64,000 nt of DNA from Gammaproteobacteria bacterium (GTDB lineage: Bacteria > Pseudomonadota > Gammaproteobacteria > Arenicellales > Arenicellaceae). The notes below the pieces were generated by a model. It worked only from the letters and a program-made list of their open reading frames with translations, made no database searches and was not told the origin of the DNA. This document shows, in pieces, positions 3-5,138 of the stretch. Location: assembly GCA_022447525.1 (NCBI GenBank), contig JAKVBA010000009.1, forward strand, positions 1 to 64,000, read 5' to 3'. Position 1 is the first letter of the stretch; each line of letters begins with the position of its first letter. Position numbers and translations under genes: made by a program.

Positions 3-137
3 GCGAGTGAGCAAGACTTTTATGCGTATGCAGCTTGGTTAAAAGAATACGCTGAGAAGTTTAAAGTAGACATCCATGCATGGGTGTTTATGACCAATCA
101 TGTGCACCTATTGTACAAAGATGGGGTCAGGTCTTGA
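3..137 (+). pseudogene. Truncated Y1-type (IS200/RAYT-like) transposase remnant
   Basis: The frame is open from the window edge and reads ...WLKEYAEKF..HAWVFMTNHVHLL before running into a short unrelated tail and a TGA. WVFMTNHVHLL is the HxH (HUH) metal-binding signature of Y1 transposases, so this is the N-terminal half of such a gene. The part carrying the catalytic tyrosine is absent. The break falls at the left end of the neighbouring RAYT element (about base 120), and the missing half does not reappear beyond that element's right end near 1065. It is therefore a truncated relic, not a simple insertion that could be restored. The start lies outside the window. Confidence 0.6.
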
Positions 138-1064
138 ACCTTGAATCGGCTCGATTTTAGACGCGGTTTATGTAAGGATATTTATAGAACTTAAATATTA
201 ACCAAGGAGGGTTAAATGGCGAGAGCATTACGTTTGGAGTACGCTGGTGCGGTTTATCATGTGACGTCACGAGGAGACCGGAGGGAAGATATCTATGAAG
301 ATGATCGCGATCGGCTCAAATTTTTAGATCTGTTTGCTGAGGTATGCGATAGATATAATTGGGAATGTCATTGCTATTGTTTGATGAGCAATCATTATCA
401 TTTGGTGGTTGAAGCACCCGATGGAAACTTATCGCAGGGAATGCGCCAGCTCAATGGCGTTTATGCTCAAATGTTCAATAAAAGACACAACAGAGTTGGT
501 CATGTTTTTCAGGGTCGATATAAGGCAATATTGGTTGAAAAAGAGGCCTATCTTTTGGAGCTTTCTCGGTATGTGGTTCTCAATCCTGTTAGAGCGAAAA
601 TGGTGGATCAAGCAAAGCAATGGCCATGGAGCAGTTATCGAGCGAGCGTTAACGAAGCTCAAAAGCCTATTTATTTAAACACCGATTGGGTTCTCTCTCA
701 TTTTGGTTCGGATACAGAGAAAGCTATCGAGCGCTACAAAGAGTTTGTCTGCGCTGGTATTGATAAACAATCCCCATGGTCTAGAGTGATCAATCAAGCC
801 TTTTTAGGCAGCTCCGAATTTATTGAACGTGGTTTAAAAGCCATTGATACGTCGATGGATCTCAGTGAAATACCCAGAGCGCAAAGACGAGGGCCCGCAA
901 AGCCAATTAGTTACTATAGGCAACTATATGAAGTTCGAAATGAGGCGATTATTCAAGCTTATAAGAGTGGCGCTTACACAATGAAGCAGATTGGTGTTGA
1001 GTTTGATCTCAGCGATTCGATGATTAGTAGAGTGATCAAGAATTCAAGATTCAAGACGTGACCC
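124..1064. mobile_element. RAYT transposase element with imperfect inverted ends
   Basis: The left end reads GGGTCAGGTCTTGAACCTTG and the reverse complement of the right end reads GGGTCACGTCTTGAATCTTG. The match extends to about 24 bases with only a few mismatches. Together they enclose a single Y1 transposase gene whose stop codon lies inside the right repeat. Known HUH elements usually lack true terminal inverted repeats, and RAYT genes are often flanked by REP-type palindromes. These ends may be REP-like or may be recognition sequences. I saw no clear target duplication. The boundaries are inferred from the repeats. Confidence 0.55.
216..1061 (+). CDS. REP-associated tyrosine transposase (Y1_Tnp family)
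   Basis: This is an HUH single-strand transposase that cuts and joins DNA through a 5'-phosphotyrosine. The metal-binding motif H60-Y-H62 lies in SNHYHLVVE. The probable catalytic tyrosine is Y119 in SRYVVLNPVRA, aligning with the E. coli RayT DYIYINP segment. After the Y1 domain (about residues 8-150) there is a C-terminal extension ending in a helix-turn-helix-like stretch (YTMKQIGVEFDLSDSMISRVI), which probably binds DNA. A strong AAGGAGG ribosome site sits five bases before the ATG. The gene is intact at 281 residues and ends inside the element's right inverted repeat. The family is clear; activity is not known. Confidence 0.93.
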   Translation: MARALRLEYAGAVYHVTSRGDRREDIYEDDRDRLKFLDLFAEVCDRYNWECHCYCLMSNHYHLVVEAPDGNLSQGMRQLNGVYAQMFNKRHNRVGHVFQGRYKAILVEKEAYLLELSRYVVLNPVRAKMVDQAKQWPWSSYRASVNEAQKPIYLNTDWVLSHFGSDTEKAIERYKEFVCAGIDKQSPWSRVINQAFLGSSEFIERGLKAIDTSMDLSEIPRAQRRGPAKPISYYRQLYEVRNEAIIQAYKSGAYTMKQIGVEFDLSDSMISRVIKNSRFKT

Positions 1065-1120
1065 TATGTACTTTTACAGCAAACTGTAATAATTAAGGCG
1101 GATTTGAGCTAATTTGCGCG

Positions 1121-1154: not shown

Positions 1155-1799
1155 ATGCATTTCGCCTTTTGTCTTTATAAACATTTCCCTTATAGTGGCT
1201 TGTCCTTGGATATGCTTAGGATTGCCAACGAGTGTATCCAGCGTGGTCACAAGGCCACGGTCTACACCGGCAGCTGGGAAGGTGACGTTCCTGATGGGGT
1301 CGAGGTCATTATCATCAAGCATTTTGGCTTGACTAATCATACTCGTGCGCACTCTTTTCATCGTAAATTAAGAAAGCAGCTAGAGACCATGTCTTTTGAT
1401 GTGGTTGTGGGTTTTAACAAAATACCCGGCATGGACATCTACTACTGTGGTGACTATTGCTATGTCGGCCGTTCTTTTCTGCGTCATTCTTGGTTCTATC
1501 GTTTTACTCCCCGTTTTCTGTACTTCTCTAATTTTGAAAGAGGGGTATTCGACGCCTCATCGAAAACTAATATTCTGTCGCTTTCTGATCGAGAACGACT
1601 TATTTACCAGCAGTACTATTTAACTCAAGATTCTAGGTTCTTGTGTTTGCCACCTACTTTGGAAAAAGCTCGCTGGGCTAATCTCGATAAGCTACCGACC
1701 CGCGCGTCGTTACGAACGTCTTTGGGTATTAAAGAAGATCAAAACCTGGTGTTATTGATTGGATCGGGTTTCCAACTAAAGGTCTGGATCGCGCAATAG
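1155..1799 (+). CDS. waaG: WaaG LPS glucosyltransferase I, N-terminal part (frameshifted)
   Basis: The N-terminal half of WaaG (RfaG), a GT4-family, GT-B fold enzyme that adds the first glucose to the heptose of the LPS core on the cytoplasmic face of the inner membrane. The start MHFAFCLYKHFPYSGLSLDML resembles the WaaG acceptor domain. The match runs to LLIGSGFQLK, then the frame breaks near 1779-1781 (CTAAAGGTCTGG) and ends at a TAG. Shifting by one base gives KGLDRAIVALAALP, the expected continuation, which lies in the next ORF. No canonical slippery heptamer is seen. A real mutation or a base-calling error is more likely than programmed shifting. An intact gene would span 1155-3244. Confidence 0.8.
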   Translation: MHFAFCLYKHFPYSGLSLDMLRIANECIQRGHKATVYTGSWEGDVPDGVEVIIIKHFGLTNHTRAHSFHRKLRKQLETMSFDVVVGFNKIPGMDIYYCGDYCYVGRSFLRHSWFYRFTPRFLYFSNFERGVFDASSKTNILSLSDRERLIYQQYYLTQDSRFLCLPPTLEKARWANLDKLPTRASLRTSLGIKEDQNLVLLIGSGFQLKVWIAQ

Positions 1800-3244
1800 T
1801 GGCATTGGCCGCCTTGCCACCAGAGTTGCTGGAGAAAACTAAGTTGTTTGTCGTTGGTCAAGATAAGATCGACAATTTTCAGCGTATTGCCAAAAAGCAT
1901 GGGGTCGCTGACCAAATTCATTTTTTGGGTGGACGTAAAGACGTACCGGCACTGATGAAAGCGGGTGACATGCTGCTTCACCCTGCCTATGCAGAAACCA
2001 CAGGAGGCGTGTTGTTGGAAGCGATAGTGTCGGGTCTTCCAGTCTTGGCTACTCCAGTATGCGGTTACGCGCCTCACATAAAAATGGCGGAAGCAGGGCA
2101 TGTTCTGCGTAAACGTTTTTCGCAAGAAGAGTTAAATGAAAAGTTGCATGAGATGTTGCTTTCTGAGCAGAAGGAAGTTTGGCGCCAAAACGGTCTAAAG
2201 TATGGTCAGAACCCAAGCTTGTATGTAATGCCGCAACGGGCAGTGGATTTCATTGAACAGACTTGCGCGCAACGAAGCCTCTATTTAAGCCGCGCTGATA
2301 TGAAAACCAGTGACGAGCAACTCTACATCACTAACGAGTTAAGGCAGGCATTACGCGGCGAAGATTCGTTCTATCAAATGATGAATATCGAGGGTAAGGT
2401 TTACCGCGAAGCGCTAGGGCGCAGAACGTTACGATTTACCCGTGGTGAAAAAGATTATTTCCTGAAAATGCACACAGGTGTTGGATGGGCCGAGATCTTC
2501 AAAAACATTATCTATTTACGCGCGCCGGTGGTTGGGGCGCTGAATGAGTGGCATGGTGTCCACCGTTTACGAGATCTAGAGATAGATACTATGACTGTGT
2601 CAGCCTATGGAATTCGAGGGCGTAATCCGGCGACTAAACATTCTTTCATCGTGACCGAGGCTTTGCCGACGGAAACCAGTCTTGAGGACTTTTGCGGAGA
2701 ATGGGCTGAAACGCCGCCAAGAAGTCTAAAAGAGATACGTTTAAAACGGTGGATCTTAAACAAAGTGGTGGAGACCGCCAGAGTCATTCACGAAAACGGC
2801 GCGAATCACCGTGACTTTTATCTTTGTCACTTTTTGCTTGATGCGCACTTTGAACAAGATTATGTTTCACCGGAAAGTAAGCTGTACTTGATTGATCTAC
2901 ATCGTATTCAAATGCGACGTAAGACGCCTGAGCGATGGGCGGTCAAAGACATCGCCGGGCTATATTATTCAAGTAAAGATATTGGTTTGACGCAACGCGA
3001 CCTATTCCGCTTTATGACCTTATATCGCGGTAAGCCTCTGCGTGAAATCTTGCGTACAGAAATGTCTTTTTGGCGTAAAGTGGTCAGTCGTGGTAACAAG
3101 CTCTACGAATCGGAGAAGCGTAAAGCTCGTGCACTTGAAAGTTTGCAACGACAAAAGGCGCAAGAGCGTTTACAAGATTCGTTACCGGACGACGCTATAA
3201 AACCTAAGCAGCAAGTATTCATGCGCAATCAAATTGGTAAATAG
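1799..3244 (+). CDS. waaP: WaaG C-terminal half fused to WaaP LPS heptose kinase
   Basis: Residues 1 to about 160 are the C-terminal, nucleotide-sugar domain of WaaG, with the GT4 E-x7-E motif (ETTGGVLLE). From about residue 168 (MKTSDEQLYITNELR) the protein is WaaP/RfaP, the kinase that phosphorylates heptose I of the LPS core. Kinase features include YFLKMHTG, NHRDFYLCHFLLD and YLIDLHR. No stop separates the two, so in this lineage waaG and waaP appear to be one reading frame. The listed GTG start at 1799 is only where the frame reopens after the upstream frameshift. Translation might also start at the internal ATG at 2300, giving free WaaP. WaaG and WaaP are adjacent separate genes in pseudomonads. 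Confidence 0.85.
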   Translation: MALAALPPELLEKTKLFVVGQDKIDNFQRIAKKHGVADQIHFLGGRKDVPALMKAGDMLLHPAYAETTGGVLLEAIVSGLPVLATPVCGYAPHIKMAEAGHVLRKRFSQEELNEKLHEMLLSEQKEVWRQNGLKYGQNPSLYVMPQRAVDFIEQTCAQRSLYLSRADMKTSDEQLYITNELRQALRGEDSFYQMMNIEGKVYREALGRRTLRFTRGEKDYFLKMHTGVGWAEIFKNIIYLRAPVVGALNEWHGVHRLRDLEIDTMTVSAYGIRGRNPATKHSFIVTEALPTETSLEDFCGEWAETPPRSLKEIRLKRWILNKVVETARVIHENGANHRDFYLCHFLLDAHFEQDYVSPESKLYLIDLHRIQMRRKTPERWAVKDIAGLYYSSKDIGLTQRDLFRFMTLYRGKPLREILRTEMSFWRKVVSRGNKLYESEKRKARALESLQRQKAQERLQDSLPDDAIKPKQQVFMRNQIGK

Positions 3245-3258
3245 GCTTTTTATCACGC

Positions 3259-3963
3259 ATGAGCGACTGGAATAGTAAAGCCGTCGATGTGGTGCGTGAC
3301 GCTCGCTGCTTTGCGCGCAAAGCGCCCACCTTTCTTGCCAATGTTCCCTTAACGGTGGAGTCTCTGAACCGATTTTTCAGTGAGGCACTTCCTAGTCAGG
3401 TCCTTAAAGACGACAGAACCACCTCTGTAGTCAAGTTGGAGAATTCAAAAAATGGTGCGTCATTTGTTTTAAAACGGTATAACGCTCGCAACCGGTGGCA
3501 TACGATTAAGCGGGCTCTGAGGCAGTCTCGGGCCAGTTTATGTTGGAACATGAGTTTTGAGTTCAGGCGCGTTGGATTGAATGTATCAGAGCCTTTGATG
3601 ATGTATGAGGACCGATTTTATGGGCTGTGTAAAGACGCTTACTTTGCCAACCGATTGCTGATTGGAGATGAGTTGTTGAGTAAGTTGCCGGCCATGAATA
3701 AGGCCGAGCAAGCCTCTGTCAGAAGCGCGGTCCTGGCGGCATTCAAGGTGCTCAAGCAAGCACGTATTTCACATGGAGACATGAAAGCAACAAATCTTTT
3801 GTGGGTCGAGGGAGCGTTATTTTTTATCGATCTGGACGCCGCTAGAAAACACCCTTGGTGGTCATTGACCTGGCGTAAGGCGCACGCAAAGGATAAAAAG
3901 CGGTTTCTTAAAAATTGGCGAGACAAGCCAGAGCTATTGTCGCTGTTTACCGAGTTAACCTAA
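3259..3963 (+). CDS. Kdo/WaaP-family lipopolysaccharide kinase
   Basis: A small protein-kinase-fold sugar kinase of 234 residues. It shows a lysine strand (SFVLKRYNARN), a catalytic loop SHGDMKATNLLW (HxD....N) and a metal-binding FIDLDA. These are typical of the Kdo/WaaP/InaA group that phosphorylates LPS inner-core sugars in the cytoplasm. It starts 14 bases after the WaaG-WaaP frame, so it is almost certainly co-transcribed and acts on the same core. The exact sugar cannot be read from the sequence; Kdo (KdkA-like) or heptose II are possibilities. Confidence 0.8.
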   Translation: MSDWNSKAVDVVRDARCFARKAPTFLANVPLTVESLNRFFSEALPSQVLKDDRTTSVVKLENSKNGASFVLKRYNARNRWHTIKRALRQSRASLCWNMSFEFRRVGLNVSEPLMMYEDRFYGLCKDAYFANRLLIGDELLSKLPAMNKAEQASVRSAVLAAFKVLKQARISHGDMKATNLLWVEGALFFIDLDAARKHPWWSLTWRKAHAKDKKRFLKNWRDKPELLSLFTELT

Positions 3964-3992: not shown

Positions 3993-5138
3993 CTACGAAA
4001 ACGATAAGAAGTCGGCAAGTTGCTGCCGCTGATCCATGGCATCATGGTAGCCAAGCTCGATTAACTTACTGCAGAAGTGACCGTCGAACATTAAATAACT
4101 TACTAAGCGCCGACTATTGGATTTTCCCATACCAAGGAACTTAAGAGCGATACGAAAACTACGGGGCAATCTATCATAATGCGCTTGTGCAATATCAGCG
4201 ATGTCTTGTGACGGTGTGATCACTAAATAATCTATTTTTTTGAGATTTTCGGGTGCGTCATCAGGGTGATCTTCTAATACTTTGTTGGTGCGGTCCATGC
4301 GCTCAATATCCGACTGTAAGCTGTTCAAAAACAGTGTGTCTAAAACATAGCCAAATATTTGACTCAAGCTCGGGCGTGTAAGTGGCCTTCTCGCTTGTTC
4401 ATCGCCTAGAGTGATCCGTAAACCAATTATGAGTATGCGCTTGGCACCTAAGTGAATGGCCGGGCTGATTGGTGCACTTTGTCGCATCGACCCATCGCCA
4501 AAATGTTCATCGCCTATTCTCACTGACGGAAAGATTACGGGTATTGCTGATGAAGCCATTAAATGGTCGATGGATAATTTGCTACGAATGCCTTCTCGCC
4601 GATTTCGATCCCAGCTCTCAATGTGGTCTGCACCGTCGTAAAAAACCTTTGATTCACCCGACGTGTAGCTGCACGCGGTAACACTGTAGGCGCTTAAATC
4701 GCCGTTCCTGATAGCAGCATCAACCCTATCAAAGTCGACGTATTGAGTAAGCAACGCACGAAGCGGAGTATTATCTAGAATTGAACTAGGGCCCTTGCGC
4801 CAATTGCCTGGGCCAACATTACACCAAAGCCATTTTGATATGCGTTTGGCCAAGTTTTTACCATCAGCGTAAAAAACATGATCAAGTTTGAAGTTTTTCC
4901 AAACCTGAGTGATGCGCTCAACGCCTTGATGAAAGTTTGTGGCATTTGATGCCAGTGCCACAGTATTGATGGAGCCTGCTGAAGTTCCACACACAATAGG
5001 AAATGGGTTTGACGCCCCTTTCGGTACGATTTCGGCCAAGGCTTGTAGCACGCCAACTTGGTAAGCTGCGCGTGCGCCGCCACCACCCAGCAGCAGTGCG
5101 GTTTGGGCATTTACATTTTCTTTAGCCGCCTTGCTCAT
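3993..5138 (-). CDS. Patatin-like phospholipase family protein
   Basis: A patatin-fold acyl hydrolase with a Ser-Asp dyad. The oxyanion loop is LLLGGGGARAAYQVGV (residues 16-30), the nucleophile S53 lies in GTSAG, and the Asp is D215 in FGDGSMRQSAP. There is no signal peptide, so it is probably cytoplasmic or inner-face membrane associated, like RssA-type proteins. It lies 14 bases downstream of rhlB on the same strand and is probably read through from it. The C-terminal 130 residues are less typical and may set substrate. The substrate is unknown; phospholipid or lysophospholipid is the family expectation. Confidence 0.88.
   Translation of the reverse strand: MSKAAKENVNAQTALLLGGGGARAAYQVGVLQALAEIVPKGASNPFPIVCGTSAGSINTVALASNATNFHQGVERITQVWKNFKLDHVFYADGKNLAKRISKWLWCNVGPGNWRKGPSSILDNTPLRALLTQYVDFDRVDAAIRNGDLSAYSVTACSYTSGESKVFYDGADHIESWDRNRREGIRSKLSIDHLMASSAIPVIFPSVRIGDEHFGDGSMRQSAPISPAIHLGAKRILIIGLRITLGDEQARRPLTRPSLSQIFGYVLDTLFLNSLQSDIERMDRTNKVLEDHPDDAPENLKKIDYLVITPSQDIADIAQAHYDRLPRSFRIALKFLGMGKSNSRRLVSYLMFDGHFCSKLIELGYHDAMDQRQQLADFLSFS

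Follow-up and report, generated by a model that had tools for sequence, protein, structure and literature searches.

The window, i.e., the whole 64,000-nucleotide stretch of DNA analysed here (contig JAKVBA010000009.1 of assembly GCA_022447525.1, from an Arenicella-like marine bacterium of the gammaproteobacterial family Arenicellaceae), carries near one end two overlapping ORFs that together encode the lipopolysaccharide (LPS)-core enzymes WaaG and WaaP (Table 1). ORF1 comprises the acceptor-side Rossmann domain and the first strand of the donor-binding domain of WaaG, followed by a short out-of-frame tail that ends at a TAG (1797-1799); in domain searches it matches the N-terminal glycosyltransferase-4 domain. 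In ORF2 the WaaG remainder runs into WaaP without an intervening stop, with matches to Glycos_transf_1 at residues 2-132 and to the Kdo/WaaP kinase family at residues 195-409. The kinase part scores 339.3 bits against the heptose(I) kinase RfaP equivalog NF011703 (cut-off 170), and its assignment to WaaP is supported by the retained catalytic motifs FLK, NHRD, and IDLHR (DLH), the catalytic motifs of Pseudomonas aeruginosa WaaP being K51, H161-R162-D163, and D188-L189-H190 (PMC6147952). These results bear out both domain identities proposed in a sequence-only reading of this DNA, as well as its observation that WaaG and WaaP share a frame with no stop between them. The same reading suggested that a free WaaP might be made from the ATG at 2300, and this holds in part: the ATG is in frame and lies in the linker just ahead of the kinase domain, but direct reading of the bases revealed no clear Shine-Dalgarno sequence before it. 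Searches of the window against Rfam and of plasmid records returned no match.

Table 1. Features of the waaG-waaP locus and its immediate surroundings, in window coordinates
Feature	Position	Strand	Remarks
RAYT element	121-1067	+	REP-associated tyrosine transposase (216-1061); directly upstream, where relatives have waaC
ORF1	1155-1799	+	214 codons; WaaG residues 1 to ~207
G_GGT_TTC heptamer	1766-1772	+	In the ORF1 frame, exactly at the break, before the 0-frame stop
Frameshift interval	1766-1781	+	Inside the conserved GSGF-x-TKGLDRAI motif of WaaG
TAGTG	1797-1801	+	ORF1 stop overlaps the GTG opening ORF2
ORF2	1799-3244	+	481 codons; remaining WaaG donor-binding domain, linker, complete WaaP kinase domain
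WaaP (heptose I kinase) part	2300-3244	+	Possible start at the linker ATG
Second Kdo/WaaP-like kinase	3259-3963	+	Downstream; adjoins the fusion in relatives too
Patatin-like phospholipase	3993-5138	-	Adjoins the locus

Alignment of an intact protein from a relative to the window shows that the frame changes once, within 1766-1781: its residues 1-209 align to 1155-1781 in one frame and its residues 205-687 to 1766-3211 in another, in both cases with 92% identity. The single-base shift that the sequence-only reading had placed near 1780 falls within this interval. Both halves of the gene are 85% to, in the nearest case, ~92% identical to the intact proteins of genus relatives. The residues of the GSGF-x-TKGLDRAI motif are mostly invariant among relatives, and through the break the remaining donor-binding domain is lost from the WaaG frame; ORF2 itself lacks the TKGLDRAI motif. 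As read, the window contains neither one uninterrupted GT-B frame, the break lying between 1766 and 1781, nor one open frame of about 660-730 amino acids with both domains.

A homologue search across 60 relatives plus the window's own genome, with 17 members of the genus besides that genome, recovered an intact single-frame fusion of 686-732 residues, in open frames of 693-751 codons, from all 13 of these 17 genomes that match strongly. Similar single frames occur in most of the order-level relatives. Counted from the start methionine, the fusion proteins of relatives span 664-732 amino acids, and thus include the intact form of ~695 residues that the earlier reading had proposed to look for. 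Named records assign the fusion group to Arenicella/Arenicellaceae and allied marine metagenome-assembled genomes (MAGs). In Endozoicomonas and Pseudomonas, waaG and waaP are two adjacent genes, and among 369 genomes drawn evenly across the class the fusion is rare outside the order and adjacent separate genes are common. On these comparisons the WaaG-WaaP fusion is the normal state of the Arenicellales and not a strain peculiarity, and the view of the fusion itself as an oddity has to be abandoned. An assembly artefact as the source of the fusion can be dismissed, given its presence in the independent assemblies of relatives. No title or abstract found in the open-access literature describes such a fusion. 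Among distant fusion-like genes in draft genomes, three (G352:C20:7481-9004, G028:C50, and G031:C27) have stop codons inside the aligned stretch, some of which may lie only beyond the true end of the gene.

A tree of 88 WaaG+WaaP pairs groups 46 fused sequences into a single clade (support 100) that spans the Arenicellales and allied marine MAGs. The fused state requires 8 changes over the tree, of which at least 7 are forced by well-supported branches, indicating repeated events of fusion, splitting, or both; because the sequences were sampled for their similarity to the fusion, such counts are not frequencies. The waaG and waaP regions share one frame in 17 of the 33 unfused pairs, which suggests that loss of a stop codon would be a simple route to fusion. 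The waaG-waaP pair of Pseudomonas and Endozoicomonas has the same gene order as the fusion, but it is unfused, with a stop codon between the genes.

The intact protein of a relative aligns to the solved structures of Escherichia coli RfaG (2iv7) over residues 3-367 (E 2e-99) and of heptose(I) kinase (6dfl) over residues 396-653 (E 7e-70). Its AlphaFold model shows two folded domains (mean pLDDT 80.6), with the lowest confidence in the linker at residues 377-385 and in the C-terminal tail. This organization points to an N-terminal GT-B glucosyltransferase domain (WaaG, ~1-370), a probably flexible linker (~377-390), and a C-terminal WaaP kinase domain. The first 367 residues resemble WaaG (RfaG), the UDP-glucose:(heptosyl)LPS alpha-1,3-glucosyltransferase with a GT-B fold (PDB 2iv7/2iw1), including an EX7E-type spacing of the invariant glutamates E281 and E289; unlike that enzyme, the WaaG of this order is fused to a kinase, and in the window it is frameshifted. 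The kinase resembles WaaP (RfaP; PDB 6dfl; NF011703) in scoring above the model cut-off and in its FLK, HRD, and DLH motifs, but differs in being fused, as the C-terminal domain, to WaaG and in carrying an additional variable tail. By homology, the intact fusion is predicted to transfer the first hexose of the outer core onto heptose II and to phosphorylate heptose I. WaaP of E. coli acts on heptose I, and its activity largely requires earlier attachment of the first outer-core residue by WaaG (PMC6286764); given this dependence, the fusion plausibly couples successive steps of core synthesis.

The break is confined to one genome. All 86 distinct sequences of relatives carrying the GSGF-x-TKGLDRAI motif read straight through it in a single frame, the frameshifted arrangement being found in none of the relatives, and on this evidence the frameshift is private to the window's genome. 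Searches of that genome found no second copy of waaG, waaP, or waaG-waaP. Nonsynonymous divergence is not raised in either the WaaG or the WaaP part: for the window and the relative nearest to it, dN is 0.054-0.067, as against 0.032-0.072 between two intact loci (L002 and L003); the comparison is made in dN instead of dN/dS, as dS is saturated. This leaves a recent break or an artefact and rules out an old pseudogene.

The surroundings of the gene have also changed. Each of the 11 Arenicella loci compared has a waaC-type heptosyltransferase gene whose end lies 51-169 bases upstream of the fusion, and in those extending far enough waaC is in turn preceded by waaF and ilvE. In the window's genome, waaF and waaC instead lie inside another contig (C154:15193-17234). 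There (C154:14333-18209), the gene after the ilvE-waaF-waaC block is not waaGP but an unrelated one in the opposite orientation. Thus, the window's waaGP has lost its usual upstream partners and the LPS-core cluster is split, presumably by rearrangement. Neither this separation nor the mobile element now ahead of the gene was noted in the sequence-only reading. The RAYT element that takes the place of waaC is bounded by terminal inverted repeats of 26 nucleotides (121-146 and 1042-1067). Within window 3-1067, this element lies in or beside an N-terminal fragment of another Y1/REP transposase, at which the contig ends; waaGP starts 1.15 kb from this contig end, which consists of transposase sequence. 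In the stretch from the transposase to the waaGP ATG, no strong promoter could be recognised. Downstream, the second kinase evolves faster than the fusion (50-62% versus 85-92% identity to genus relatives) and scores just under the cut-off of the Pfam Kdo family. The patatin-like phospholipase is weakly similar to a CBASS phospholipase model (59 bits; cut-off 200); it is also found near the fusion in some relatives (G005 and G015) and is hence probably a housekeeping enzyme.

Taken as a whole, we interpret the locus as an order-conserved bifunctional waaG-waaP gene of LPS-core synthesis that a single-base frameshift has cut in this genome alone (probability roughly 0.85). The frameshift would truncate WaaG within its donor-binding domain, and the downstream start may still supply the kinase, in smaller amounts. 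As for the cause, we somewhat favor a recent loss-of-function indel without rescue; the indel would then be real and, as the sequence-only reading suggested for that case, active WaaG would probably be lacking. Second in likelihood, and a substantial contender, is an error in the consensus or assembly of the draft genome, with the living organism having an intact fusion. The remaining waaGP codons look fully constrained, without any sign of relaxation, which fits a very recent mutation and equally an error in an intact gene. The uniform read-through at the motif in relatives and the position of the site, ~1.8 kb from the end of one of the 222 contigs that make up the assembly, speak for an error. 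Against it, waaGP is the only frame-split gene among 70 matches to ORFs of relatives, covering 36.5 kb of the window in a census that extended to the window plus 3 kb of contig C154; this points to no general excess of indels in the assembly, and an indel-rich genome is likewise unsupported. The loss of the waaF-waaC linkage is, moreover, an independent change at the same locus. All explanations other than an unrescued mutation or a consensus error together claim only a small share of our confidence.

Among these is an unlikely proposal in which a real frameshift is partly bypassed, with a -1 slip on the G_GGT_TTC heptamer giving some full-length WaaG-WaaP beside truncated WaaG. The heptamer has the right frame at the right point, and a -1 slip at 1766-1772 yields a full-length fusion that matches relatives without a gap. 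Furthermore, mixed motifs as a rule shift poorly in E. coli, with R_RR.U_UU.Y heptamers noted as an exception, but even the best heptamers in that organism shift only ~0.3% without stimulators (PMC4066793). Several further observations weigh against the bypass: downstream folding is not significant (z-score -0.78 for pseudoknot-free folds); no relative uses a frameshift; the same xxG GGT TTY codons occur by chance in 7 of 86 intact relatives; and the ORFs of the window show no avoidance of such heptamers, with 6.0 per 1000 codons in frame versus 2.7-4.5 out of frame. A programmed -1 frameshift is unlikely given the lack of conservation and of significant downstream structure, and the heptamer at the break is probably a coincidence, with a trace of full-length protein by slippage there being possible. 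That a real and tolerated frameshift, with low levels of full-length WaaG-WaaP made via slippage, might serve as a leaky, reversible off-switch, e.g., under phage pressure, appears more improbable still. Least credible is a pair of coupled genes in which termination-reinitiation at the TAGTG yields a split WaaG in two polypeptides: the ORF1 stop and the ORF2 GTG do overlap, but neither half would then encode the TKGLDR motif in the right frame, and no relative has the arrangement.

The frameshift matters only if it is real, in which case outer-core synthesis would have been lost recently in nature. The finding of lasting value is the fusion, which joins two successive, functionally coupled LPS-core enzymes in one protein across a marine gammaproteobacterial order, with similar fusions seen more than once elsewhere in the tree. 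It fits the dependence of WaaP on WaaG in E. coli and may offer a natural construct for studying the coupling of the two.
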